The notes below the pieces were generated by a model. It was given only the letters and a program-made list of their open reading frames with translations. It made no database searches and had not been told where the DNA came from. A DNA stretch of 56,039 bases from Chloroflexota bacterium (GTDB lineage: Bacteria; Chloroflexota; Limnocylindria; Limnocylindrales; CSP1-4): NCBI GenBank assembly GCA_015478725.1, contig JADMIG010000018.1:1-56039 (forward strand), in the 5' to 3' direction. Made by a program: the position numbers and the translations under genes. Positions 27,748 through 55,292 of this stretch are shown in pieces. Position 1 is the first letter of the stretch; the number at the start of each line of letters is the position of its first letter.

Positions 27748-28610
27748 GCGGGGCACCCGTCCGGTTCCTCGAGCGCGACGGGTGGGCCCTGGCCTACCGC
27801 CGGACGGGCGGCGGTCCCTCGCTCGTCCTCCTCCATGCGACGCTCTCCTCCTCTGCGCAGCTCCAGTCGCTGGCGGACCGCCTCGCCGCGTCGTTCACGG
27901 TCATCGCGGTCGATCGGCGGGGGAGCGGGGAGAGCCGCCCGCCCGGGGCGCCCCCGCCTGGACCGATCGACGTGGCCGTGCACGTCGACGACCTGGCCGC
28001 GATCCTTGCCGCCGAGCGGGTCGAGCCCATCCTCGCCGTGGGCCACAGCTACGGCGGCTGTCTCGCCCTCGAGTTCGCCGCCCGCCGGCCGGGGCTCATC
28101 ACGGGCAGCTGGGTGTACGAACCCCCGTACGCGCCGATCGGCGGGCCGGCGGTCCGAGCCACCCTCGCCGACGTCGCCCGGCGGACGGCCGCGGCGGGTC
28201 GACGGGGCGGGCAGGGCGCAGCCGCCGAGGCCTTCCTGTCGGCCGTGGGCGGCGCCGGAGCCATACAGGGCCTCTCGCCGGCCGCCCGGCAGCGGATCCG
28301 GCTGGCAGGCTCGGCCGCCCTCGCCGATGCTGCCCTCCTTGGTCTCGAGCCCGACGGGCTCGAACGGATCCGGTGCCCGGTCGTCGTCGCGACGGGGACG
28401 GCGAGCCAGCCCGTCTACGCCGCTATCGCCGAGGCGCTCGTCGAGCGGGTGCCGGAAGCGGCCCGCGAGTGGATCGATGGCGCCGCCCACGGCGCGCCGC
28501 TCACCCACTCGGGGATCGTCGCCGCGGCGATCGAGGCGTTCGCTGCCCGAAGCGGCTGGACCGGGTTCGAACCGGCTCGTCTCGATCCGGATTCGGGGTC
28601 CAGCCGATGA
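27744..28610 (+). CDS. Alpha/beta hydrolase of the menaquinone operon
   Basis: A 288-residue alpha/beta hydrolase. The nucleophile Ser102 sits in VGHSYGGCLAL, the oxyanion segment is LVLLHATLSSS, and a His lies in DGAAHGAPLTH near the C-terminus; AVDRRGSGES is the usual strand-4 motif. It is GTG-started and coupled to menE (GTGA) and to the menG fragment (ATGA). The operon has no recognised hotdog-type DHNA-CoA thioesterase, so this protein might release 1,4-dihydroxy-2-naphthoate from CoA. That role is inference; it may also be a second MenH-like protein or a general esterase. Confidence 0.8.
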   Translation: MSGAPVRFLERDGWALAYRRTGGGPSLVLLHATLSSSAQLQSLADRLAASFTVIAVDRRGSGESRPPGAPPPGPIDVAVHVDDLAAILAAERVEPILAVGHSYGGCLALEFAARRPGLITGSWVYEPPYAPIGGPAVRATLADVARRTAAAGRRGGQGAAAEAFLSAVGGAGAIQGLSPAARQRIRLAGSAALADAALLGLEPDGLERIRCPVVVATGTASQPVYAAIAEALVERVPEAAREWIDGAAHGAPLTHSGIVAAAIEAFAARSGWTGFEPARLDPDSGSSR

Positions 28611-28786
28611 CCGGGAGCAACGACGCGCCGCCCGAGCGGATCCGGGAGATGTTCGACCGGATCGCCGACGTCCATCGGGCCAGGGACGCGCTGGCCTCCG
28701 GATTTCAAGGAGCCTCGCTGGCGGCGGCAGGCTCGATGCTCGGGAAGTTCGTCCGGCCGGCCGCCGGCCGTGTGCCCGTTCCATGA
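28607..28786 (+). pseudogene. Truncated menaquinone methyltransferase (menG/ubiE) fragment
   Basis: The frame begins with ATG 28607 overlapping the hydrolase stop, as an intact last operon gene would. Residues 1-23 (PPERIREMFDRIADV) match the N-terminus of MenG/UbiE methyltransferases, which continue with a Y-D-x-x-N segment. Here the homology stops, and 35 unrelated residues lead to a TGA at 28784. None of the SAM-binding motifs (such as DVxxGTG) is present. The enzyme that methylates demethylmenaquinone is therefore not encoded here; an IS remnant lies about 120 bases downstream. Confidence 0.7.
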
Positions 28787-28907
28787 ACGGGCGGTACCGA
28801 TCCGACTGTCGGTCGACGCCCCCCGCCGCCCTCGCGATCTCACTCGCCCCCGGCCGTCGTGTCCAATCCACGGCCGTTAGCTCTGACACTCGCGGGCGCC
28901 CGACCCC

Positions 28908-28951
28908 GGTCAAGTCCCAGGACGCACGGTGTAACGGGCTTCAACCTCGCG
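28908..28951 (-). repeat. Dispersed 44-bp element, copy B (IS end)
   Basis: Matches 12049-12091 at about 34 of 44 positions (shared blocks GGTCA, GTCCC, GGACG, GTAAC, GGGC, TCA, CCTCGCG on the plus strand). It starts 11 bases beyond the transposase-tail stop codon. Confidence 0.5.
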
Positions 28952-29105
28952 TCGCGGATGATCAACTCGCGATGAAGAGCGCCGCGTGGACCGCTGCATG
29001 GTCGACGACGGCATCCATGGCGGCCACAGGCTCGGGCCCGAAGTAGCGGCGGCCGTCCTGCCACTCGTCGTCCAGCTCGGCCAGCTGGCCGGTCGCCTTC
29101 GGGCT
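28908..29105 (-). mobile_element. IS256-type transposase tail and terminal sequence (remnant)
   Basis: Read on the minus strand, codons from about 29105 down to a TGA at 28962-28964 give a tail containing LAELDDEWQDGRRYF and then EPVAAMDAVVDHAA. The D-E-W-Q-x-x-R-R-Y segment is typical of the C-terminus of IS256-family transposases. Immediately downstream (28951-28908) is a 44-bp sequence ending in GGGACTTGACC, in the place where the element terminus should be, and it recurs at 12049-12091. The catalytic DDE region and the other end are absent. Similarity is judged from memory of the family. Confidence 0.5.
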
Positions 29106-29135
29106 CCGATCAGGGGCCCGCCTTCCCCGGGTCGC

Positions 29136-29495
29136 CTACTCGACCTTGATCGTCCTGCGATTCCTGGCGGGCGCGTGTGGTCGCTTCTGGTCCGTCTCCA
29201 TCCGTCCGATCCAGAAGTCGACGATCGAACGGATCCCGAGGAGGTGCTCGCGGCCGGCATTCCGGAAGTGTCCGCTCGCCTCGGGCGGCGCGACGCGGCT
29301 CATCAGATCCCGGCCTCTCTCGCGCAGTCCGAACGTACGCTCGAGCCGGGCGAGGCGAGCCTCAAGTTCGGCCAGCCGTTCCTCGGCCGGGCCGGACTCG
29401 CCCATCGGCATACCGGCTGAAGGAACCGCCGTCCTCCGTCGGCGCGTCGTGGACCCCTGCGAGCCTCGGGCGGCTCGTCGCTCGTCAGTCATCAT
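29136..29495 (-). CDS. Small helical protein coupled to ArsA-HSP20 ATPase, unknown function
   Basis: A 119-residue protein not recognised. The first 35 residues are basic and probably disordered; residues 36-62 (EERLAELEARLARLERTFGL) form a short coiled coil; residues 62-100 look like a helical module with REHLLGIRSIVDFWIGRME; the tail is basic. Its ATG overlaps the stop of the ATPase (ATGA on the minus strand), so it is translated with it and is probably a partner. Its TAG stop lies in the same frame as the following transposase remnant. Confidence 0.6.
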   Translation of the reverse strand: MMTDERRAARGSQGSTTRRRRTAVPSAGMPMGESGPAEERLAELEARLARLERTFGLRERGRDLMSRVAPPEASGHFRNAGREHLLGIRSIVDFWIGRMETDQKRPHAPARNRRTIKVE

Positions 29496-30685
29496 CGACC
29501 TCCTTCTGCACCGTTCTTTGTCCGGGTCGAGAATTCGATACGCAGGATCCCGTCCTCCATCTTCGCTCCGGTCGTCGGCGCGTCGACGAGCGCCCGAGGC
29601 AGGACGAGCGTTCGACGCCAGTTTCCGACCTGGAGCACCAGGTCGTCGCCGTCGCGCGAGAGGCCGACCTCCTCGCGGCTCGTGAAGGGCAGGGCGATCT
29701 CGAGGATGTGCCTCCCGCCCTCGGTTCGGATCCGGTACGGGCGTCCCCGATAGAAGAAGCTGCCGGGATCCTCGTCGCCGAAGAGGGCGCGGCCGATCTC
29801 CCGTAATCCGGCGGCGCCGACGACCTCCTGGTCGAAGAAGGGCACGGTCCGGACCGGAACGGGGGCGAAATCTTCGCGGACCCGGGGCAGGTCCCGCTGC
29901 TGTGCGTCACGGAGGCCCGCGAAGTAGCCATCGACCGCCGCCGGGAGGACGCGGTTGCACACGACAAGGTCACTCGGGTAGCCGAAGAGGTGGAAGTAGG
30001 TGAACGAGCGGCGGGCTTCGGCGATCGCGAGTTGCTCGAGCGCGAGGACCAGGCGGACCGACGATCGCTCGGGGTCGGCGAGCAGCCGATGGACGAGATC
30101 GAGACGGGTGAGCAGGCGCTCGGCGGCGGCGAAGACTTCATCGTGCGGAACCGGCACGCCGATCATCCGTTCGATGACGGGCCGGCCGAGCCGGCTCACC
30201 CGGCGGCCGATCGGAGCGATGCGGTCGACCCACCAGCGGCTGGCCTCGGGCAGGGAGAGCAGGCGGAGGGTCTCGCCGGTCGGGGCCGCGTCGACGACGA
30301 TCAGGTCGTAGCGACCCGATTCCACGTGATCCGCGATCCAGAGCAGGTTGCCGAGTTCGTCCATCCCCGGCAGGACCGTCATCTCCTCGGCCATCACGGC
30401 ATCGAGACCGCGCCAGCTGAACAGCTCGGCCATATAGGTCTGGATCGTCCGCCAGTACCGCCCGATGTTGAAATAGACGTCGGGTTCCTGTGCCCACAGG
30501 TTCGGGGCGATCTCGGACGGTTCCGGTCCGAGCCGGGTGTCGAACGCGTCGCCCAGGCTGTGGGCGATGTCCGTGGAGAGGACGATCGTGCGAGTGCCAC
30601 GGTCCGCGCTCAGGAGCGCCGTCGCGGCCGCGACGCTCGTCTTGCCGACGCCGCCCTTGCCGGTGTACAGGAGGATCCGGGTCAT
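29492..30685 (-). CDS. ArsA-type ATPase with C-terminal HSP20-like domain
   Basis: A 397-residue cytoplasmic P-loop ATPase of the ArsA/Get3 family. The deviant Walker A is TGKGGVGKTS (residues 8-17), the switch I region is LSTDIAHSLGDAF, and switch II is VVDAAPTGETLRLL. The last 90 residues are an HSP20-like beta domain (ALPFTSREEVGLSRDGDDL, then VLPRAL) found in ArsA-HSP20 proteins. No arsenite Cys pair or other ars gene is near, so client targeting rather than arsenic export is more likely. I chose ATG 30685, directly before the P-loop domain; a longer frame runs into the promoter region. Confidence 0.88.
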   Translation of the reverse strand: MTRILLYTGKGGVGKTSVAAATALLSADRGTRTIVLSTDIAHSLGDAFDTRLGPEPSEIAPNLWAQEPDVYFNIGRYWRTIQTYMAELFSWRGLDAVMAEEMTVLPGMDELGNLLWIADHVESGRYDLIVVDAAPTGETLRLLSLPEASRWWVDRIAPIGRRVSRLGRPVIERMIGVPVPHDEVFAAAERLLTRLDLVHRLLADPERSSVRLVLALEQLAIAEARRSFTYFHLFGYPSDLVVCNRVLPAAVDGYFAGLRDAQQRDLPRVREDFAPVPVRTVPFFDQEVVGAAGLREIGRALFGDEDPGSFFYRGRPYRIRTEGGRHILEIALPFTSREEVGLSRDGDDLVLQVGNWRRTLVLPRALVDAPTTGAKMEDGILRIEFSTRTKNGAEGGR

Positions 30686-30720
30686 CGGCGACACCCAATG
30701 CGAGCGGGGAACAGGTCGCC

Positions 30721-30726
30721 ATGCTA
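30721..30726 (-). promoter_or_regulatory. Candidate -10 box of the ArsA operon
   Basis: TAGCAT on the minus strand, followed by GG, lies 35 bases upstream of the ATPase ATG. It is back-to-back with the YihY promoter at 30751-30779. The -35 is not clear. Confidence 0.3.
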
Positions 30727-30750
30727 CGCCCGATCGCGATGGAACCTCCC

Positions 30751-30779
30751 TGTGCGAGCCGTCCGGCATCCGCTACGCT
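30751..30779 (+). promoter_or_regulatory. Promoter, copy 1 of a duplicated promoter segment
   Basis: TGTGCG (30751-30756), a 17-base spacer and TACGCT (30774-30779). The segment is nearly identical to 36325-36353 in front of the cyclase gene, including the spacer block TCCGGCATCCGC. An ATG (30792) of the broken YihY gene follows. Confidence 0.5.
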
Positions 30780-30791
30780 AGGCGTCTGGAG

Positions 30792-31698
30792 ATGCTCGCC
30801 CGAAGTCCTCCTGTCCGACCTACAGGCCGACACGATCGCGGTCGCTGATCCCAGGCCGCCTGCTCCAGCGCCCAAAGGGCCGTTTGGGACGCGGCCGGCG
30901 GCGGTCTCCTCGCAGCGGGGCTCGCCTTCAACTCGCTCTTCGCGATCCTGCCCTCGATCCTCCTGGTCATCGGCGTGGTCGGTGTCTTCCTCGGTGACCC
31001 GGGCAGGCTGGCCGCACTGTCAGCCAACCTGTCGGCGACCTTTCCGCCCCTCACGAGCTTCTTCAAGGAGGCGCTGGCGGGCTTCGCGGACGGCGCGGTC
31101 ACCTATTCCGTCGTTGGCGTGGTCGTCCTCGTCTGGGGCGCCAGTCGGTTCTACCAGTCACTCGACGATGCGATGGCCCGGATCTTCGAGAGCACACGCC
31201 GGCGTGATCCACTCCAACGCGGCGTGTTCGGCATCCTCTCCGTGCTCCTGCTCGGGGCAGGCGTCGGCGGTGTCATCGCCGCTTCGCACCTCGTCGCCAA
31301 CCTCGCCGCCGATGGGATACCCGGCGTCGCCCTCGGCGCCTCGATCCTCAGCTCCACCATCGGCTCAGGGCTCGTCATCGTCACCGTGTTCAGTGGGGGA
31401 TCGCGATCTTGTACCGCCTCGTTCCGACCACCGGCCGGAATGGCAGATGATCGGCCGGCCGGCGATCGTCGTCGGTACGTTCACCGCGATGTTCACGGTG
31501 CTCTTTGCGGCGCTCACCCCCCAGCTCGGGGGCTCCCTGCAGGTCTACGGTGCGTTCGTGGCCGTATTCGGCGCGATGATCTGGCTGTCATTCGTCAGTC
31601 AGGCGCTCCTGATCGGCGCCGCCTGGGTTCACCGCAGGGTGGTCCTGGACGACGCGCTCAAGGCGCGGAGAGTGGGAGCGGCGGGCGGGTTCATGTAA
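30792..31698 (+). pseudogene. YihY/BrkB-family membrane protein, frameshifted
   Basis: The protein is readable only by joining frames. From about 30849 to 31393 one frame gives GLAFNSLFAILPSILLVIGV, then FFKEALAGFADGAV, ASRFYQSLDDAMARIFE and GASILSSTIGSG, the membrane core of YihY/BrkB proteins. Near 31393 one base is missing, and QWGIAILYRLVPTT follows in a second frame. Near 31438 one more base is missing, and PEWQMIGRPAIVVGTFTA plus two further helices are read in a third frame to TAA 31696-31698. A TGA (30846-30848) also interrupts the path back to ATG 30792. Either a decayed gene or assembly errors. Confidence 0.7.
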
Positions 31699-32015
31699 CG
31701 ACGGTTCATGTAACGACGGAGGACCCGCTCTGTCGCCCAGGTCGCAGCCCAGCCGAGCGGAAGATATCGACCCGGCAGGAACAACAGGCCCGCACCCGCG
31801 AGTTCTCTGGCCGCCGGATGGCGAACGGCGCTGCGGACCGCGGCTCGCACATCCCGTGGATGTCGCACGTCCCGCAGCAGGGCGGATCGGTCGTTTGCGA
31901 CGCGCCGAGCCATGTCGCGGAGGGTCGCCGATCGAGCGGCCGCGAAGATCACGCCGCGAGTCTCGGGCAAGGTGGCGAGGCGGATGACCCGGCCGAACTT
32001 GGTCATGGATGGCAT
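31629..32015 (-). CDS. Small basic hypothetical protein
   Basis: A 128-residue arginine-rich protein with alternating short helices (GVIFAAARSATLRDMARRVAND, then DVRAAVRSAVRHP) and one hydrophobic stretch (AGAGLLFLPGRYLPLGWAATWA), probably membrane-associated. No family recognised. It is convergent with the YihY pseudogene and overlaps its last 70 bases. The 15-base duplication at 31688-31717 falls in its frame and doubles the peptide RRYMN, so the natural C-terminus may lie there. Confidence 0.5.
   Translation of the reverse strand: MPSMTKFGRVIRLATLPETRGVIFAAARSATLRDMARRVANDRSALLRDVRHPRDVRAAVRSAVRHPAARELAGAGLLFLPGRYLPLGWAATWATERVLRRYMNRRYMNPPAAPTLRALSASSRTTLR
31688..31717. repeat. 15-bp perfect tandem duplication
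   Basis: GGTTCATGTAACGAC occurs twice back to back. It repeats the last codons and TAA of the YihY frame on the plus strand and adds five in-frame residues to the minus-strand small gene. Confidence 0.85.
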
Positions 32016-32075
32016 CCGATCATCCCACGGGGGCGGACCTGAATCTCGATTCTGGCGCGTTCGTGGCGTTGCGCG

Positions 32076-32300
32076 TCAGCGGTCGCTCGGGGTCGGCCGA
32101 TCGGGCGTTGTGGTTGGATCGCCCCAACCGCTCTGAGGCCGACGAGCCTTGCGGACGTCATCGCCGAGATTCCCAAGGTCCTTGCGGGCTTCGTCGCCGG
32201 CGTTGCCGACGCGATCCTTGAGGTCTGCGCCGTCCACGCCGCGAGCGGCCTTCCTGATCCCGGTCTTGACCTCGCGGTAGGTTCGCTTCGCTTCGTCCAT
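32076..32300 (-). CDS. Small hydrophilic stress-type protein
   Basis: A 74-residue charged protein without membrane segment. Its composition (repeated K/R with D/E and A, for example YREVKTGIRKAARG and DEARKDLGNLGDDVRKA) suggests an amphipathic or disordered stress protein resembling CsbD-like small proteins, but no family signature is certain. ATG 32298-32300 has AAGGAGACAG upstream; an earlier ATG lacks a ribosome site. Confidence 0.55.
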   Translation of the reverse strand: MDEAKRTYREVKTGIRKAARGVDGADLKDRVGNAGDEARKDLGNLGDDVRKARRPQSGWGDPTTTPDRPTPSDR

Positions 32301-32335
32301 CGATCTGTCTCCTTGCGATTGCTCGCGGGCGACCA

Positions 32336-32425
32336 TCACAGTTTGATGACGCCCACCAGGATGAGGATCACCACGACGATGACGATCACGCCGACGATCC
32401 CGACGCCACCGTTCCTGTAACCCAT
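32336..32425 (-). CDS. 29-residue single-pass membrane peptide
   Basis: ATG 32423-32425 follows an excellent ribosome site (GAGGGAGGCGAG). The product is MGYRNGGVG followed by a run of 17 almost purely aliphatic residues (Val, Ile, Leu, one Gly) and the end VIKL. It would span the membrane once with its short glycine-rich N-terminus outside or inside. It lies 35 bases upstream of the stress-type protein and in the same direction, so they may be co-transcribed. Too short for ordinary gene finding. Confidence 0.55.
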   Translation of the reverse strand: MGYRNGGVGIVGVIVIVVVILILVGVIKL

Positions 32426-32597
32426 CTCGCCTCCCTCGTTTACTGCAGGCGCCTCATGACCGCGATCCCAGCGCGATCGGCAGCCCCTGTCCGGCACGAT
32501 GGGGCGGGTGGTCCGCGGAAACAAGGATGGAAACACGGTGACGACCTCCTCGACGGATCGCTCCGCGCGACCGGTGCGACCGTCCCGATGTCGACGG

Positions 32598-33269
32598 TCA
32601 GCCGTTCCTCCGGACCCGCGCCAGGATCGCGCCGAGGATCGCCACGGCGATGAGGATCCCCGCCACGACCAACGGGGCCGGGTCCGAGACGGGCGTGACG
32701 CTGTTTCCGGCGGGCGAGGGCGACGCGGCTGGCTGCCCCGGGGGGCTGGCGATCGTCGCGGAAGAGACCGCGGCGAGCGGTGGCGTTCCACTCGAGGTCG
32801 GGTTCGCGGCCACTATCACCGTGTGGCTCGGCGCGGGTGTGGATGGCGGCGTCCGCGCAGGAGTCGCCAGCGGCGTCGCGCGCGGAGTCGGACCTGGGGT
32901 CGTCGCCACCACGACCGTGATCGTGCCCTTCATCTGCGAATCGGCGTGGATCTCGCAGAAGTAGTGGTACGTTCCTGCCACGGTGAACGTGAACGAATAC
33001 GATCCACCGGCGGCCGTGAATCCGGAGTCCAGGGGTCCACCGGAAGGGTGGCCGACGTTGCTCCCATCGATGGTTCCCGACGTCACGGTGTGACCGTCGC
33101 CCGACATCGTCCAGACGACCGTGTCGCCCACGTGGATCGTCCTGGAGGGCGGCTTGAACTCGAAATTCACGGCCGCCACGGAGATGGAGGCTGCTGCGGC
33201 GCTGCCCGTCTCGAAAAGCGCGACGATGCCCAGCGCGACGATGCCCGACGAACGGGCACGATGCGACAT
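32598..33269 (-). CDS. Exported, membrane-anchored cupredoxin (plastocyanin-like)
   Basis: A 223-residue protein with a signal peptide (residues 1-27), a type-1 copper domain (about 28-122), a long Pro/Thr/Ser/Ala-rich linker and a C-terminal membrane helix (VVAGILIAVAILGAIL) with a basic stop. The copper ligands are all present: His60 (DGHTV), Cys105, His108 and Met113 in YFCEIHADSQM. It should carry electrons outside the membrane. GGAGGAG lies just before ATG 33267-33269. It is divergent from the CHRD gene over 154 bases. Confidence 0.85.
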   Translation of the reverse strand: MSHRARSSGIVALGIVALFETGSAAAASISVAAVNFEFKPPSRTIHVGDTVVWTMSGDGHTVTSGTIDGSNVGHPSGGPLDSGFTAAGGSYSFTFTVAGTYHYFCEIHADSQMKGTITVVVATTPGPTPRATPLATPARTPPSTPAPSHTVIVAANPTSSGTPPLAAVSSATIASPPGQPAASPSPAGNSVTPVSDPAPLVVAGILIAVAILGAILARVRRNG

Positions 33270-33423
33270 GTCTCCTCCGGACCCTGCTCTCGCAGTGGAT
33301 ACGTCCATCCGCACAACGGTGGATCTCTGAAACCGGGCGCGGGTCGGCGTACGTATCACCGGGAGACATGATCCGGGTCCGGCATGCGGTGACAGGCTCG
33401 GGTCGCCACGGAGGAGGAATCTC

Positions 33424-34482
33424 ATGCGCGTGCCCCTGACCCTGATCGCGGGGATTCTCGCTCTCGCCGCGGCTCCGGCGATCGTCCTTGCTGCCAACCC
33501 ATTGACTCCGGCGTTCGGCGGTCCGCTCACCGGTGCCCAGGAGGTGCCCGCCGTCGCGACGGCGGGCACCGGGGATGGGACCGCGGTCATCAGCTCTGAC
33601 GGATCGACGATCACGTACTACGTCACGTACAGCGGCCTCTCCGGGCCGGCAGTCGCGGCCCACATCCACACCGGCGCGGCCGGCGTCGCCGGCGGCGTGA
33701 TCCTGCCGCTCGCCGTGAGCGCGAGCCCCATGGTCGGGACACTGACCGCAGCGAACTTCATGCCGTCCGGCGCGATCACGACATTCGCCCAGGCGGTCGC
33801 CGCGATCCAGGCCGGGAACACGTACTTCAACATCCACACCGCCGCCCATCCGGGTGGCGAGATCCGCGGCCAGATCGTCGCCAAGGGCAATGCGAGCTTT
33901 GCCGCGCTCGCCGGTTTCCAGGAGGTGCCCGCCGTCGCCACGTCGGCGACCGGCAGCGGCTGGGCCCTCATCAGCTCCGACGGATCGACGATCACGTACT
34001 ACGTCACGTACAGCGGCCTCTCCGGGCCGGCAGTCGCGGCCCACATCCACACCGGCGCGGCCGGCGTCGCCGGCGGCGTGATCCTGCCGCTCGCCGTGAG
34101 CGCGAGCCCCATGGTCGGGACACTGACCGCAGCGAACTTCATGCCGTCCGGCGCGATCACGACATTCGCCCAGGCGGTCGCCGCGATCCAGGCCGGGAAC
34201 ACGTACTTCAACATCCACACCGCCGCCCATCCGGGGGGCGAGATCCGCGGCCAGATCGGTGTCACCGTCGCGGCTCCGGCTCCGACCTCGACTCCGACCT
34301 CGACTCCGACCGCGACCTCGACCGCGTCACCCACTGCCGGCGCGACCGCGCCACCCACCTCGACCCGACCTGTCGGGCCCGCATCGGGCGGTTCGGCCCT
34401 GCCGCTGGTCATCGGGATCCTGGTCTTCCTCGCGTTCGTGCCAGTCGCCAGCCGCCGTTTCGCTCAGCGCGGCCGTCGGTAG
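33424..34482 (+). CDS. Exported CHRD-domain protein with two near-identical domains
   Basis: A 352-residue protein: signal peptide (1-23), two CHRD domains (about 32-150 and 159-277), a Thr/Pro/Ser-rich linker and a C-terminal membrane helix with basic tail (LPLVIGILVFLAFVPV). CHRD domains carry the patterns LTGAQEVP, YYVTYSGLSGPAVAAHIH and HPGGEIRGQI seen here twice; their function in bacteria is not established. Domains 1 and 2 are almost identical at DNA level (33588-33877 and 33969-34258). GGAGGAGG precedes ATG 33424. The matching architecture of the divergent cupredoxin suggests both are displayed on the cell surface. Confidence 0.88.
   Translation: MRVPLTLIAGILALAAAPAIVLAANPLTPAFGGPLTGAQEVPAVATAGTGDGTAVISSDGSTITYYVTYSGLSGPAVAAHIHTGAAGVAGGVILPLAVSASPMVGTLTAANFMPSGAITTFAQAVAAIQAGNTYFNIHTAAHPGGEIRGQIVAKGNASFAALAGFQEVPAVATSATGSGWALISSDGSTITYYVTYSGLSGPAVAAHIHTGAAGVAGGVILPLAVSASPMVGTLTAANFMPSGAITTFAQAVAAIQAGNTYFNIHTAAHPGGEIRGQIGVTVAAPAPTSTPTSTPTATSTASPTAGATAPPTSTRPVGPASGGSALPLVIGILVFLAFVPVASRRFAQRGRR
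33588..34258 (+). repeat. Intragenic duplication, two ~290-bp copies
   Basis: Copies at 33588-33877 and 33969-34258 are offset by 381 bases and differ at only about three positions that I could find (for example CTCTGAC against CTCCGAC, and CCGGGTGGCG against CCGGGGGGCG). Synonymous sites are unchanged, so the copies are recent or kept alike by gene conversion. Confidence 0.9.
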
Positions 34483-35059
34483 GGCGCTCGGCTCCGGTTC
34501 CATCGGCCCGCCGTGGTACGTCGCGGCTCGCCGTTCGTGACAGCTGACCCCCAGGCGGGCGCTCGTCACCGACTCCCCACGCGGCGCTGGCAGACCTGAG
34601 CGTGGATCGAGCCGGGCCGGCGCGTGGATCCTGCCAGATGCCCGGGTGAAGACCAGCGGTCACCAACATGCAGACCAACGCCCGCCTGATGGCCATCTGC
34701 CGGAACCTGGGACGGCGGGCTCGATCCGATGGGATTCTCGGCGACGACGTGTCCGGGGGTCACGGCCAGGGGCGATCCGGCGCGCGTTGCATCGGGCGGG
34801 CCATCGACCGGTCCGCCCGACCGTCCCCGTCCTCAGCTTGCGGTGGGGGCAAGGCGCCGGATCTGGACGGGGTGAACCGTACTGACGCGGGGACAGGTTC
34901 ATCCGAGGTACCCTCCTCGCGCCTGTCTCGTTCGGCGGCCCTGCCCAACCCCGTCGATCGAGGCGCACGATGGCGGACCGGACTGCCCGACGGTACGCAC
35001 TGGGCAGAGCCGGATCGGGGCAGAGCCGGATCGGGGTGGGCGCCAGAGCGGAGGTCGGG
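34483..35059. other. 577-bp region without a supported gene
   Basis: Open frames here have arginine/serine-rich shadow composition and no start with a ribosome site. An inverted repeat TGAACC (34873-34878) / GGTTCA (34896-34901) and a 16-bp tandem duplication (35002-35033) are the only structures noted. I see no tRNA or known RNA motif. A decayed gene cannot be excluded. Confidence 0.5.
35002..35033. repeat. 16-bp perfect tandem duplication
   Basis: GGGCAGAGCCGGATCG occurs twice in a row, 27 bases before the monooxygenase ATG. Because 16 is not a multiple of three, it argues against translation starting upstream at 34970. Confidence 0.85.
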
Positions 35060-36310
35060 ATGGTCGAGGACGTCCTGCCGGCGACGATCGATGCGGCCGT
35101 GATCGGAGCCGGGCACGCCGGGCTGATCGTGAGCGCACTGTTGCGGCAGGCCGGTCGCGATCACGTCGTCCTGGATCGGCGGCCCCGAGTAGGCGGCGGC
35201 TGGCAGGACCGCTGGGACGACTTCTGCTTCGTGACGCCGAACGCGTGCATGGCGATGCCCGGGTACGGCTACGACGGGCCCGATCCGGACGGGTTCATGC
35301 CACGCGACGAGATCGTGGCGCGTCTCGCCCGCTACGCTGAGGTCATCGCCGCGCCCGTATTCAGCGGGACGGACGTACGCTCCCTGTCCGCGGGCGACGC
35401 AGGCGCTGGATTCCGCCTCGAGACGTCGCGGGGGACCGTGGCGGCGAGCGGCGTCATCGTCGCGGCCGGCGGCTATCACGTCCCGAAGGTGCCGCCCATC
35501 GCGGCCGACCTGGCGCCTCGAGTAAGCCAGCTCCACAGCCATGACTACCGCAGCGAGGCGTCGCTGCCGCCCGGCGGTGTCCTCGTCGTCGGGTCCGGTC
35601 AGTCCGGCGTCCAGATCGCCGAGGAACTCCATTCGGTCGGCCGGCCGGTCACCCTGGCCGTCGGGCACTGCGGTCGACTACCGCGGCGCTACCGGGGCCG
35701 GGACATCTTCGGTTGGCTGGCGGACGTCGTGTCCCGCGGGCCAGAACTCGGCATGGCCCTGCCGACGGTCGCCGAGCTGCCCGACCCGCGCCTTCGGTTC
35801 GCCGGTAATCCGCATCTGTCCGGGCATGGCGGAGGGCACGACACGAACCTGCGCCAGTTCGCCGCCGACGGGATCCGCCTCGTCGGCCGCGTCGAGGGCG
35901 GGGCGGGGGAGGTCCTCCGCTTCGCGCCCGATCTCGCCGCCAACCTCCAGTTCGCCGACACGTTCTTCGACCAGCGTTTCCGACCGCTCCTCGACGCGTT
36001 CATCGAGCGCGCGGACCTCGATGCGCCGGCCGACGACCGAACGGTGGTCAAGTTCGAGCCGCCCGAGGTGACCGAGCTCGACCTGGCCGCCGAGGGCATC
36101 TCGACGATCATCTGGACGAGCGGCTATCGGCCCGACTTCGGCTGGATCCACCTGCCGATCCTCGACGAACAGGGTATGCCCAGGCAGGACCGTGGTGTGA
36201 GCGAGGTGCCCGGCCTCGCCTTCGTCGGTCTGCCCTGGCAGCGCGACCAGGCTTCGGCCACCTTCCTGGGGGTCGTGCGCGACGCGGAGTATGTCGCCAG
36301 CCGCTGGTGA
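35060..36310 (+). CDS. FAD/NAD(P)-dependent monooxygenase-like oxidoreductase (FMO/CzcO type)
   Basis: A 416-residue flavoprotein. The FAD-binding GxGxxG is DAAVIGAGHAGLIVSALL (residues 11-28), followed by VGGGWQDRWDDF, and the NAD(P)-binding GxGxxG is VLVVGSGQSGVQIAEEL in mid-protein; IIWTSGYRPDFGW near the C-terminus matches the family ATG-like motif. Such proteins include flavin monooxygenases and CzcO-type oxidoreductases; the substrate is unknown. ATG 35060 has GGAGG 5 bases upstream, preferable to an ATG 30 codons earlier. It stands alone between two regions of unrelated genes. Confidence 0.82.
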   Translation: MVEDVLPATIDAAVIGAGHAGLIVSALLRQAGRDHVVLDRRPRVGGGWQDRWDDFCFVTPNACMAMPGYGYDGPDPDGFMPRDEIVARLARYAEVIAAPVFSGTDVRSLSAGDAGAGFRLETSRGTVAASGVIVAAGGYHVPKVPPIAADLAPRVSQLHSHDYRSEASLPPGGVLVVGSGQSGVQIAEELHSVGRPVTLAVGHCGRLPRRYRGRDIFGWLADVVSRGPELGMALPTVAELPDPRLRFAGNPHLSGHGGGHDTNLRQFAADGIRLVGRVEGGAGEVLRFAPDLAANLQFADTFFDQRFRPLLDAFIERADLDAPADDRTVVKFEPPEVTELDLAAEGISTIIWTSGYRPDFGWIHLPILDEQGMPRQDRGVSEVPGLAFVGLPWQRDQASATFLGVVRDAEYVASRW

Positions 36311-36324
36311 GGCTGAGCCGGTCC

Positions 36325-36353
36325 TGTGCGGGCTATCCGGCATCCGCTACGCT
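36325..36353 (+). promoter_or_regulatory. Promoter, copy 2 of a duplicated promoter segment
   Basis: TGTGCG (36325-36330), a 17-base spacer and TACGCT (36348-36353), followed by GGGCG. About 30 of 36 positions match 30750-30785. It would start transcription about 20 bases before the cyclase GTG. Confidence 0.5.
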
Positions 36354-36379
36354 GGGCGCCCTGAAGACGGGAGGCCTCG

Positions 36380-39300
36380 GTGGTTTGCGCGAGCTGCGGG
36401 ACGGAGAACAAGCCGGGGCGTAGGTTCTGTGCGCAGTGTGCCTCTCCGCTCGCCGCGCCGTGCTCACGCTGCGGGGCCGCCAATGACCCGGGCGATCGGT
36501 TCTGCGGGCAGTGCGCCTCGCCGCTCGAGGCCGAACCGACGACGCGATCGGCGCCGGTCCAGGCGGCCACGACGTCTCCCCCGGTCGCCGAGCGTCGACT
36601 CGTGTCTGTGCTTTTCGCCGATCTCGTCGGCTTCACGGCGATCGCTGATGGCCGTGATGCGGAGGAGACGCGTGAGCTGCTGGGACGCTACTTCGAGCTC
36701 GCGCGCGACGTCGTCGAGCGCTACGGCGGGGTGATCGAAAAGTTCATCGGCGACGCCGTCATGGCCGTCTGGGGAGCGCCAGTCGCCCGTGAGGACGACG
36801 CCGAGCGCGCCGTGCGCGCGGGCCTCGAGCTCGTCGCGGCCATTCCGACGATCGAGACGCAGCTGCGGGCGAGGGCCGGGGTCCTCACCGGCGAGGCGGC
36901 GGTGACGCTCGGTGCCGCGGGGCAGGGGATGGTGGCGGGTGACCTGGTGAACACGGCGTCGCGACTCCAGTCCGCCGCGCCGCCCGGCGCCGTGTTCGTC
37001 GGTGAGGCGACGCAGCGCGCAGCCTCCAACGCCATCGCCTTCGAGCAGGCAGGCGACCAGCTCCTCAAGGGCAAGACCGCCCCCGTCCCGGCGTGGCGCG
37101 CGCTGCACGTCGTGGCCCGCGTCGGCGGGGCCGGCCGGAGCGAGGGGTTCGAGGCCCCGTTCGTCGGCCGCGAGCGGGAGCTGCGCCTCCTCAAGGACGC
37201 CGTCGGGACGACGGGCGAGGACGGTCGCGCGCGGCTGATCTCGATCGTCGGCGTGGGCGGGATCGGCAAGAGCCGGCTCATCTGGGAGCTCGAGAAGTAC
37301 CTCGACGGCGTCGTCGAATCTGTCTACTGGCACCAGGGCCGCTCGCCAGCGTACGGAGACGGGATCGCCTTCTGGGCGCTCGGCGAAATGGTGCGACGCC
37401 GGGCCCGGATCGCGGAGGCGGACGATGCGGCCACGACCGCGGCGAAGGTCGACGAGGCGGTCATCGAGTGGGTGACGAGCGAGGACGACCGCGGCTGGGT
37501 GCGGCAGCGGCTGCGGAGCCTGCTCGGCCTCGAGGAGCCTCCGGCAGCGGCACAGCGCGAGGAGATGTTCGCCGCCTGGCGCCGTTTCTTCGAGGGGATC
37601 GCAGAGCGGGGCACGACGATCCTCGTCTTCGAGGACCTGCAATGGGCGGATCCTGGCCTCCTCGACTTCGTCGAGTCGATGATCCAGTGGAGCAGAAACC
37701 ATCGTCTGCTTGTCATCACGCTCGCCCGGCCGGAGCTGCTCGAGCGGCGGCCCACATGGGGCGCCGGCCAGCGGGCATTCACCTCCCTCCGCCTCGACCC
37801 GCTCCCGGACGCCGATGTGCGCATCCTGATCCGCGGGATGGCCTCAGGACTATCCGATGAGATCGTCGACCGGATCGTGGCCCGGGCCGAGGGGATCCCG
37901 CTCTACGCCGTCGAGACGTTCCGGATGCTCGTCGATCGCGGCGCTCTCGCCCCGACGGCGGAGGGGCGGATGGTCGCGGCGGGGACTGGCGTCGCACTCG
38001 ACGTGCCTGAGTCGCTCCACGCGCTGATCGCCTCTCGCCTCGACGCCCTCGACCCGGCCGATCGCGCGCTCGTCCAGGATGCGTCTGTCCTGGGTCAGAC
38101 CTTCACGCTCGATTCGCTGGCCGCGGTCGTCGACCAGCGCCCCGGAGAGCTCGAAGTCCAGCTTCGCGGCCTCGTCCGGCGCGAGATCCTTATCCTGGAT
38201 CTCGACCCACGATCGCCCGAGCGCGGCCAGTACGGCTTCGTCCAGTCGCTCATCCGCGAGGTCGCCTATACGACGCTGGCGCGACGGGAACGACGGTCCA
38301 AGCACCTGGCGGTCGCGCGGTTCTTCGAGGCGCTCGGGGACGAGGAGCTGTCCGGTGTCCTCGCCACCCACTACGTCGAGGCGCACGCCGCCAGCACGCC
38401 GGGCCCGGAGGCCGACGCTCTGGCGGCTCAAGCCCGGATCGCGCTCCGCGGCGCGGCCGAGCGTGCGCTCGCGCTCCACTCGCCCGACCTCGCCCTCGGC
38501 TACCTTGAGCGAGCCCTCGCAGTGACCCAGGACACCGCCGAGTCCGCACGCCTCCACGACGAGGCTGCCCGGGCGGGTTATCAGGCGAACCGGATGTCGG
38601 CGTCTGAGGACCATGCGCGGGCGGCGATCGCCGCGTTTGAGGCGTCGGGCGACCCGGCTGGCGCCGCTCGCGCAGCGGCGATGCTCGGCGTCCTCCTGAT
38701 GTTCGCCTCGAGGATCGAGGAAGCCTCCGGGGTCCTCGCGCAGGCGCTCGGGGCGCTTCCCGAGGGAGACGCGAGCCCCGAGGCCGTGATCATGCTCGCC
38801 CAGCTCGGACGGGCGGCCATGTTCGCCAGCCGCCCCGACGAAGCGGTCGCCTGGCTCGAACGCGGCCTCGCGGCGGCGCCGCGGATCGACGACGTCGCCG
38901 GGATCGCCGACATGTTGATCACGCGGGCCTGGGCGGTCCAGACGATGGGTCGCTGGCGCGAGTCGGTGGCGATCCTGCAGGGTGCGCTCGAGATGTCCGT
39001 TGAGCACGGTCTGCTCGAGAGCCAGCAGCGAGCGCGGAACAATCTCGCCACGTTCTTCATCACCTACGGTCCGCGGCGCGCGCTCGAGATCGGTCGCCCG
39101 GGGCTCGAGATGGCTGAACGACTCGGCCATTCGGGGTGGGCCGCGAAGTTCGGCTTCCTCGCGATCCCTGCGTTTCTCGCGGGCGAGTGGGAATGGGCGG
39201 AGGCCCGGATCGATGAGCATTTCCGTGACGATCTCGGCAACCTGACGTGGACGCCGCTCGCCGCGGCGAAGATCTCCCTCGCGATCTGGCGAGGCGACGA

Positions 39301-39919
39301 TCGCGCGGCGGAGACCGTGCTTGCCGAACTAGGTCGTCGCGTCGAGCGTGGGACTGCGCAGGACCGATTCGCAGCCCGCGGCGCCGAGGCCGAATGGGCG
39401 CTCGCCCACGAGACGCCCGATCGAACGTGGGAGGCTGCCATGGCACTCGTCGCGGTCGGACAGGAGCTCGGTGACGCGATCGACGGATGGATCGCGGCCG
39501 GGCGCGCGGCCGCCCTTGCGACGAATGCCGAGCGCTTGCGCCAGACGATCGTCGGGCTCGAAGCCGGCCCGCCCGGGCTCGACTTCACGATCGCACATCG
39601 AACGCTCTACCGGGGCGCGCTTGAGGCGCTCGACGGCAACGTCCCAGCGGCGTCGACCGCCTTTCGAGAGGCGGCTGACGTTCTGCGACGGACAGGCAGC
39701 ATCTGGTCGCTCGCGCTCGCCCGTCTCGTCGAGCTCGCGGTGCTGCGGCCACCGAACGAGGAGCGTGACGCAGCCCTCGGCGAGGCCCGCGAGATCGGCG
39801 AGCGACTCGGCGCGCACGCGTTCCTGGAGATGCTCGATCGGTTCCCGGGTGCGGCGGTGCCGACTGCCGGCACGGGCACCGGTACCGCCTCGACGCGTCC
39901 GGTACTCGAGGCTGGCTAG
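36380..39919 (+). CDS. Zinc-ribbon class III adenylate cyclase with AAA ATPase and TPR-like domains
   Basis: An 1179-residue cytoplasmic signalling protein. Two zinc ribbons open it (Cys 2, 5, 16, 19 and 27, 30, 41, 44). A class III cyclase domain follows (about 70-240): metal Asp80 in FADLVGFT, K120 in EKFIGD, Asp124, and NTASRLQ with the catalytic Asn and Arg, so it looks active and ATP-specific. Then an AAA/STAND ATPase (Walker A GVGGIGKSR near residue 295, Walker B LVFEDLQWAD near 415) and a long helical-repeat C-terminus of TPR type (about 640-1150). Start GTG 36380 has GGGAGG 6 bases upstream. These proteins probably couple ligand sensing to cAMP production. Confidence 0.9.
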   Translation: MVCASCGTENKPGRRFCAQCASPLAAPCSRCGAANDPGDRFCGQCASPLEAEPTTRSAPVQAATTSPPVAERRLVSVLFADLVGFTAIADGRDAEETRELLGRYFELARDVVERYGGVIEKFIGDAVMAVWGAPVAREDDAERAVRAGLELVAAIPTIETQLRARAGVLTGEAAVTLGAAGQGMVAGDLVNTASRLQSAAPPGAVFVGEATQRAASNAIAFEQAGDQLLKGKTAPVPAWRALHVVARVGGAGRSEGFEAPFVGRERELRLLKDAVGTTGEDGRARLISIVGVGGIGKSRLIWELEKYLDGVVESVYWHQGRSPAYGDGIAFWALGEMVRRRARIAEADDAATTAAKVDEAVIEWVTSEDDRGWVRQRLRSLLGLEEPPAAAQREEMFAAWRRFFEGIAERGTTILVFEDLQWADPGLLDFVESMIQWSRNHRLLVITLARPELLERRPTWGAGQRAFTSLRLDPLPDADVRILIRGMASGLSDEIVDRIVARAEGIPLYAVETFRMLVDRGALAPTAEGRMVAAGTGVALDVPESLHALIASRLDALDPADRALVQDASVLGQTFTLDSLAAVVDQRPGELEVQLRGLVRREILILDLDPRSPERGQYGFVQSLIREVAYTTLARRERRSKHLAVARFFEALGDEELSGVLATHYVEAHAASTPGPEADALAAQARIALRGAAERALALHSPDLALGYLERALAVTQDTAESARLHDEAARAGYQANRMSASEDHARAAIAAFEASGDPAGAARAAAMLGVLLMFASRIEEASGVLAQALGALPEGDASPEAVIMLAQLGRAAMFASRPDEAVAWLERGLAAAPRIDDVAGIADMLITRAWAVQTMGRWRESVAILQGALEMSVEHGLLESQQRARNNLATFFITYGPRRALEIGRPGLEMAERLGHSGWAAKFGFLAIPAFLAGEWEWAEARIDEHFRDDLGNLTWTPLAAAKISLAIWRGDDRAAETVLAELGRRVERGTAQDRFAARGAEAEWALAHETPDRTWEAAMALVAVGQELGDAIDGWIAAGRAAALATNAERLRQTIVGLEAGPPGLDFTIAHRTLYRGALEALDGNVPAASTAFREAADVLRRTGSIWSLALARLVELAVLRPPNEERDAALGEAREIGERLGAHAFLEMLDRFPGAAVPTAGTGTGTASTRPVLEAG

Positions 39920-40004
39920 GCGTGCCCGCGGTCATGGTCGCACCGCTCGAGGAAGACGAATGGCCATCGCAGGCCACGGTGCCCACCTCGGGAGGCTCCG
40001 TCCC

Positions 40005-40634
40005 TCAGCGCCTGGCCCAGTAGTCGTCGCTCGACTTGCTGGCCGCCAGCGCGGCCGGGGTCTCGAAGCCGGGAGCCATGGAGGCCGCGTCGCCGGCGAG
40101 GACCTCGTGGTGTTCGATGTTGAGGAGCCGCAGCCAACTCTGCTGGCCCATCGTGAGCGCGATGAAGTAGCCCAATTCGACGAGCTCGGGCTCGCTGAAG
40201 TGTCGGCGCAGCCGGTCCCAGAACGCGTCGTCGGGATCCAGGCGCCAGGTGATCGCCTCGGCGTACGCCAGCGCGGCCTTCTGCCGCTCGTCGTAGACGC
40301 CCGAAGTCTCGAAATTGAGCAGCTCGTCGTACTTTCCCTCGCTCAGTCCCTGCGCCGAGGCCTGGACCGAGCGCTGGTTGCCGCAGTATTCGCACTTCAC
40401 CGTGCGCGACACGTAGACCCGGCAGAGCTCCTTGATCGTGTGGTCGCAGACGCCCTCGCGGAACACCGCCTGCCAGGAGTTCGCGAACGACCAGAACACG
40501 GCGGGGACGTGGGCCCGGACGGACTGGCTCTCCGGCCGCGGCGTGCCGAACCGGGCACACCGCTCCAGTTCGGCGCGCATGTCCCCGTCCACGGACTCCG
40601 GCCCGACATAGCTGATCCGCTGTCTCTCTGCCAA
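40005..40634 (-). CDS. Carboxymuconolactone decarboxylase-family (AhpD-like) protein
   Basis: A 209-residue all-helical protein of the CMD/AhpD superfamily with a CxxC pair (C81, C84 in VKCEYCGNQ) following the ELCRVYVSRT helix, and the second conserved helix ELVELGYFIALTMGQQ. Members are decarboxylases, peroxidase partners or unknown. The start chosen is TTG 40632-40634: GAGGAGG lies 5 bases upstream, whereas ATG 40682 lies inside the acyl-CoA dehydrogenase gene. It is the last gene of the long minus-strand operon and follows the dehydrogenase by 31 bases. Confidence 0.8.
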   Translation of the reverse strand: MAERQRISYVGPESVDGDMRAELERCARFGTPRPESQSVRAHVPAVFWSFANSWQAVFREGVCDHTIKELCRVYVSRTVKCEYCGNQRSVQASAQGLSEGKYDELLNFETSGVYDERQKAALAYAEAITWRLDPDDAFWDRLRRHFSEPELVELGYFIALTMGQQSWLRLLNIEHHEVLAGDAASMAPGFETPAALAASKSSDDYWARR

Positions 40635-55120: not shown

Positions 55121-55172
55121 GCGCGGGGAGCGGCCGGTGTCGCCGGCCGGGCGATGCGGAGCCCGCCGTGTG

Positions 55173-55292
55173 CCGGTTACGCGCGGGGTGCGTACTGGTC
55201 GCGTGGTGGGCAGATCCGGGAGCGGCGCGCGTGCCTGGGCATGTCGGACTGCGACGGATACGCTCTGGGTGCGTACTGGACGTGGTGGACGA
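55173..55292. repeat. Two ~40-bp imperfect direct repeats, 81 bases apart
   Basis: 55173-55212 and 55253-55292 share GGGTGCGTACTGG and flanking blocks (about three quarters identity). In one plus-strand frame they encode similar peptides (GYARGAYW, GYALGAYW), but no start with a ribosome site supports translation. The surrounding 55121-55534 holds no other gene that I can support. Confidence 0.5.

Follow-up and report, generated by a model that had tools for sequence, protein, structure and literature searches.

Matus-Garcia (2012) and van Passel (2014) reportedly described mobile promoters and the propagation of promoters in prokaryotes. Mobile-promoter work is cited in PMC8049555 and PMC9208149, and PMC3160421 gives TANNNT as the -10 pattern in high-GC (guanine plus cytosine) bacteria with leaderless genes. 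Here we describe a short, putatively promoter-bearing segment that occurs twice in a 56,039-nucleotide (nt) stretch of DNA from a Chloroflexota bacterium (GenBank assembly GCA_015478725.1, contig JADMIG010000018.1, hereafter the window), once upstream of a decayed YihY/BrkB-type gene and once upstream of a cyclase gene. Promoter duplication is a known kind of event, and this case is probably a local instance of it with two copies.

Two copies of one segment

Ungapped self-comparison of the window showed 32 of 36 identical positions between 30749-30784 (copy 1) and 36323-36358 (copy 2). This pair was the fourth-best self-match (expect value, E, 2.5e-5). The original prediction had reported the near-identical 36-base-pair (bp) pair one base further to the right, and its other landmarks were likewise found in both copies: TGTGCG at 30751-30756 and 36325-36330, the spacer block TCCGGCATCCGC at 30762-30773 and 36336-36347, and TACGCT at 30774-30779 and 36348-36353. 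An alignment with one gap widened the match to 47 columns, 30749-30794 for copy 1 and 36323-36369 for copy 2, both on the plus strand. Seven substitutions were present among 46 positions, all seven of them transitions, along with one indel. Outside these 47 columns the identity of the copies was near background (12/46 upstream, 22/64 downstream). The -10-like TACGCT and the preceding CATCCGC form a 13-base box of the type described below for cyclase promoters, at 30767-30779 in copy 1 and 36341-36353 in copy 2 (plus strand); its promoter role is predicted.

To place this similarity in context, we used the window, which is contig C18 of a 3.45-megabase (Mb), 151-contig assembly, together with 400 kilobases (kb) of two other contigs (C1 1-200000 and C2 1-200000) as a genome sample of 456 kb. 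The next-best match for either copy in the sample was 24/36. A non-self match of at least 32/36 was found for 3 of 300 noncoding 36-mers drawn at random and for 1 of 150 random 36-mers, and pairs this alike are therefore rare but not unique. Within the window, the 18-base word TCCGGCATCCGCTACGCT had two matches at up to three mismatches, compared with a mean of 0.10 in shuffled sequence; none of 100 shuffles reached two. The copies were alike beyond what shared sigma recognition gives. For two draws from a profile of 29 cyclase promoters, the probability of reaching 32/36 is 2e-9; among 406 real pairs of cyclase promoters the best agreed at 25/36, against 32/36 for the two copies. Seven transitions among seven substitutions have a probability of about 2e-4 for unrelated DNA of the same composition.

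Identity also extended beyond the box. In the 23 columns outside it (18 upstream and 5 downstream), the copies agreed at 19, whereas ten other promoters with the box agreed with either copy at 2-12 of 23. At a per-position identity of 0.29, the probability of at least 19/23 is 1.5e-7. Because of this contrast, the identity outside the box is best explained by descent of both copies from one sequence.

The genome scan proposed in the original prediction showed that the full word has no additional copies before genes, as TCCGGCATCCGCTACGCT occurs exactly twice in the whole genome. Two more genome sites had two mismatches, both within long open frames. At up to three mismatches the genome held 13 sites, not above the reversed control (18). 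A short form, TNSGCTACSCT, was found at 16 genome sites and its control at 24; simple gene calls put eight of the 16 inside reading frames, and the eight outside comprise both copies and a site at one other cyclase gene, among others. On these grounds we rejected a family of the full word spread over the genome: there were two copies only, near-matches fell within frames and counts did not exceed the control. A longer pattern with 24 fixed positions had no match at up to three mismatches in 100 relatives. The exact 18-base word gave three matches in a wider contig collection, from which the window's own record was possibly left out, and all three were in unrelated bacteria.

The box recurs before cyclase-family genes

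The gene downstream of copy 2 (36380-39919, plus strand) encodes zinc ribbons, Guanylate_cyc, AAA_16 and TPR domains by Pfam, and its GTG start lies 32 nt from TACGCT. It belongs to a large family, with a match in at least 38 of 61 genomes. Matches with an unaligned start, and some others, were left out of the upstream comparison. There were 40 other cyclase upstream loci, one of which was at a contig edge and unusable, leaving 39. TA[CGT]NCT was found within 100 nt upstream in 29 of these 39 regions, compared with a mean of 3.65 in single-base shuffles and 4 on the opposite strand, and [CG]GCTACGCT was found in 11 of the 39.

The ten regions without TANNCT were dropped, as were 5 of 20 new loci. 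The 29 remaining promoters had T at -5 in 24 cases, G at -2 in 22 and C at -1 in 20. T at -5 was first spotted in this set and then tested on 15 further cyclase promoters, where it occurred in 8. This frequency was higher than in other genes of the relatives (1/15, p = 0.014) and in TANNCT sites of this genome (5/34, p = 0.011); there was no clear difference from leadered TANN[CA]T sites of this genome (11/40, p = 0.11). The cyclase promoters are not independent samples, several of those in genome G015 being near-identical. An extended -10 with T at -5 and GC before TACGCT is thus likely, but not settled, to be enriched before cyclase-family genes.

The exact box CATCSGCTACGCT, which comprises the downstream part of the spacer and the -10, occurred at 16 sites in 7 of the 61 genomes. 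Nine of these sites precede genes of the Zn-ribbon/cyclase/AAA family. For six of them a gene with a direct cyclase match lies downstream, and the -10 stands 32 nt before the start in copy 2 and 38-46 nt before it in the other five. The remaining three are assigned to the family by inference at contig ends: on G015 contigs C39 and C86 the upstream DNA is nearly identical to a cyclase promoter, and on G024 contig C97 the site precedes a zinc-ribbon start of the cyclase type. Two G015 genes with the box are 68% identical to the window cyclase over their first 273 and 295 residues; both carry CATCCGCTACGCT, with the -10 at 38 nt before the start. The other seven sites were copy 1, a flavin-enzyme gene of this genome, one G015 gene, one unclear case and three apparently inside reading frames. 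We take the product of that G015 gene, judged from its sequence, to be a corrinoid-binding protein. It is the placement of CATCSGCTACGCT, rather than its number, that appears informative. Its position before cyclase-family genes supports the view that the spacer's downstream part is a component of a promoter form recurring in this family.

At four G015 loci (L246, L250, L254 and L255), near-identical cyclase promoters and gene starts were located at the ends of contigs or close to them, as though recent duplicates of cyclase genes had interrupted the assembly.

Promoter features of the genome

TACGCT was enriched in 218 upstream regions of the genome sample, with 12 occurrences against 2.0 expected and 9 on the opposite strand of the same regions. 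TAGGAT, TAGCAT, TACCAT and TATACT were also enriched upstream and showed a stronger strand bias than TACGCT. This enrichment and the fit to TANNNT argue that TACGCT is an ordinary -10 in this genome. Of 92 candidate -10 sites in the sample, 32 lay 12-15 nt before a called start, a position that suggests frequent leaderless transcripts, and TTG was found at a spacing of 17 or 18 in 10. The simple gene caller placed the start of the cyclase gene at 36608 and did not call most of the YihY gene; for this reason neither copy is contained in the 218 regions, the 92 sites, the 29 promoters or the own-genome controls for T at -5. We found no paper on leaderless promoters in Chloroflexota or on adenylate cyclase in Limnocylindria.

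The gene behind copy 1 is decayed

As had been claimed, the YihY and cyclase genes are unrelated by Pfam, and the YihY gene (30809-31698, plus strand) is broken. An in-frame stop follows the ATG at 30792. Homology to the YihY gene of G015 begins at 30809, 15 bases past the end of the repeat, and relative to this homologue about 67 bp are missing and the frame changes near 31440. The frame at 30975-32042 scored 33.6 bits for BrkB in Pfam, just under the cut-off of 33.7. The start of homology, the loss of about 67 bp, the frame change and the in-frame stop together indicate that the YihY gene is decayed and that copy 1 borders a stretch that has been rearranged. The G015 homologue is 73% identical and lies directly behind another open frame, without a promoter of this kind. 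Its surroundings match window positions 7-10 kb.

A single copying event as the favoured explanation

With moderate confidence, we favour an origin in which the cyclase gene's own promoter, copy 2, was copied once as a segment of about 47 bp, and copy 1 is the diverged duplicate and likely a relic. Copy 2 would be a promoter of the sigma-70 type, presumably recognized by the main sigma factor. Its extended -10 would be TACGCT with the preceding CATCCGC, which recurs before a number of cyclase-family genes in related genera. The segment would have been copied into the gap between the ArsA and YihY genes, after which seven transitions and one indel would have accumulated between the copies. Copy 1, which today precedes the decayed YihY gene, would most likely be a relic, or a promoter by accident that has no product of importance; it is probably without function. 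We infer the direction of copying, from copy 2 to copy 1, because copy 2 has the promoter form of the family at a distance within the family's range and because the G015 YihY gene is without such a promoter. Promoter activity of either copy, and its driving of a gene, are likewise readings of the sequence.

The original prediction had proposed that a regulator site within the spacer or a recent duplication was likely. Duplication is supported by the 19/23 identity outside the box and by the exclusively transitional substitutions, and a conserved element in the downstream spacer is supported by the occurrence of CATCSGC-TACGCT before cyclase genes. The word recent is not supported, because 7 of 46 positions plus one indel differ.

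Several observations weigh against the favoured origin. CTGTGC, at 30750-30755 in copy 1 and 36324-36329 in copy 2 with a spacer of 18 nt to TACGCT, is a weak -35 at best, and a scan of 30600-36500 with a strict sigma-70 consensus returned no promoter. The total of CATCSGCTACGCT sites in the 61 genomes (16) was not above that of a reversed control pattern (18). None of the relatives examined showed a one-copy or empty state or shared this arrangement, and the direction of copying is therefore argued from the promoter form and the YihY homologue. The copied length of only about 47 bp is without explanation. Selection acting on both copies might account for the unbroken core of 18 bases. A run of this length is expected in 18% of random placements of the substitutions, and for this reason we do not claim such selection.

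Alternative explanations

The strongest alternative, which we still regard as unlikely, is that both promoters belong to one regulon: the spacer block would be the site of a regulator or dedicated sigma factor, and selection would preserve the likeness of the copies whatever their origin. The recurrence of CATCSGCTACGCT before cyclase-family genes agrees with this, as do the frequencies of T at -5 in both sets of cyclase promoters (24/29 and 8/15, against 1/15 and 5/34 in controls) and the sparing of the core by the substitutions between copies. The core run, however, is not significant, and T at -5 in the 15 further promoters is not clearly commoner than at the leadered sites of this genome (11/40). 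Moreover, 7 of the 16 box sites are not before cyclases, the full word has no third copy and copy 1 precedes a broken gene. No further gene of a regulon in this genome was preceded by the full spacer block, and the longer pattern did not occur in the 100 relatives.

A broader version is more speculative, and we give it rather little weight. The Zn-ribbon/cyclase/AAA/TPR family would have a lineage-specific extended -10 box, strongest as CATCSGCTACGCT, and a dedicated sigma factor or activator would read it. Many signalling paralogues would then form one regulon, and copy 1 would be an instance of the box being copied to new genes.

Slightly more doubtful again is an insertion, in which the repeats flank a 5.5-kb block placed between the ArsA and cyclase genes and the promoter segment was doubled in the process, for example as an att-like core. 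The ArsA-type ATPase gene (29492-30685, minus strand, by Pfam) is divergent from copy 1, and the direct repeats surround a block that holds the YihY relic, itself rearranged, together with a dispersed repeat and the gene of a flavin enzyme. In genome G002 an ArsA gene and a cyclase gene (46% identical) are likewise divergently oriented, separated by 5.1 kb, an arrangement that would fit an insertion history; the genes between them do not match those of the window. The block proteins scanned, small open frames in part, contained no Pfam recombinase domain. In the ArsA loci of 20 relatives with 1.5-kb flanks, no close strain being among them, there was neither a cyclase match directly beside ArsA nor an empty site.

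Chance, that is, two ordinary promoters alike by accident, was rejected as hardly credible: TACGCT, like G/C at -2 and -1, is often seen in promoters here, but the shuffles, the next-best match, the transitions, the cyclase profile and the identity outside the box all argue against it.

Other features of the window

The gene directly before copy 2 encodes a flavin oxidoreductase (Pyr_redox_3 by Pfam; 34970-36310, plus strand), and the gap between it and the cyclase gene, which holds copy 2, is 69 bp. Between the two copies, 34485-34785 is a dispersed noncoding repeat of about 280 bp. Among the 40 of 114 candidates that were scored, this genome has at least 16 copies of at least 200 bp, the window's included, at 79-90% identity to that of the window, plus short partial copies. 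Three of 30 relatives showed matches to it, all short (up to 42 bp). The repeat consensus folds into a long hairpin with ends like those of repetitive extragenic palindromes (REP). Rfam gave no match up to E 1 across 28000-40500, this repeat included.

The gene at 33424-34482 contains two CHRD stretches by Pfam and two direct repeats of 291 bp (33587-33877 and 33968-34258) that are identical at 289 of 291 positions, which points to the CHRD domain having recently been duplicated or converted within the gene. A short dispersed repeat at 55172-55281 was also found at C2:109595-109662 and is repeated within the window stretch.

Comparison with known promoters

The locus is a small example of promoter duplication in which shared function, the cyclase box, can be separated from shared descent, the rest of the segment. 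It also yields something more useful, a candidate extended -10 box common to members of a large paralogous cyclase family in a high-GC lineage, which would make joint reading of these signalling genes testable.

TACGCT fits the TANNNT -10 described for high-GC bacteria with leaderless genes in PMC3160421. Unlike the leaderless genes in that account, the cyclase gene, with copy 2 at 32 nt before its GTG, would be leadered, and copy 1 is without an intact gene.

This genome holds a second pair of promoters close to each other, C1:183146-183239 and C1:186706-186799 (locus L152, from C1:180001), 3.5 kb apart. They are 34/36 identical through the spacer, around a TAGGCT -10. In contrast to the unrelated genes behind the window pair, the proteins downstream on C1 have similar N-termini, and gene duplication therefore explains that pair. 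The genes behind the C1 pair look like flavin oxidoreductases.

Like the mobile promoters reportedly described by Matus-Garcia and van Passel, the segment is a short sequence, here with a predicted promoter role, that stands before unrelated genes. Unlike a mobile promoter family, with many copies or spread among genomes, it is present in two copies only, close together in one genome and in none of 100 relatives, and nothing suggests mobility. The segment is best read as an ordinary local duplication and is not a mobile promoter family.

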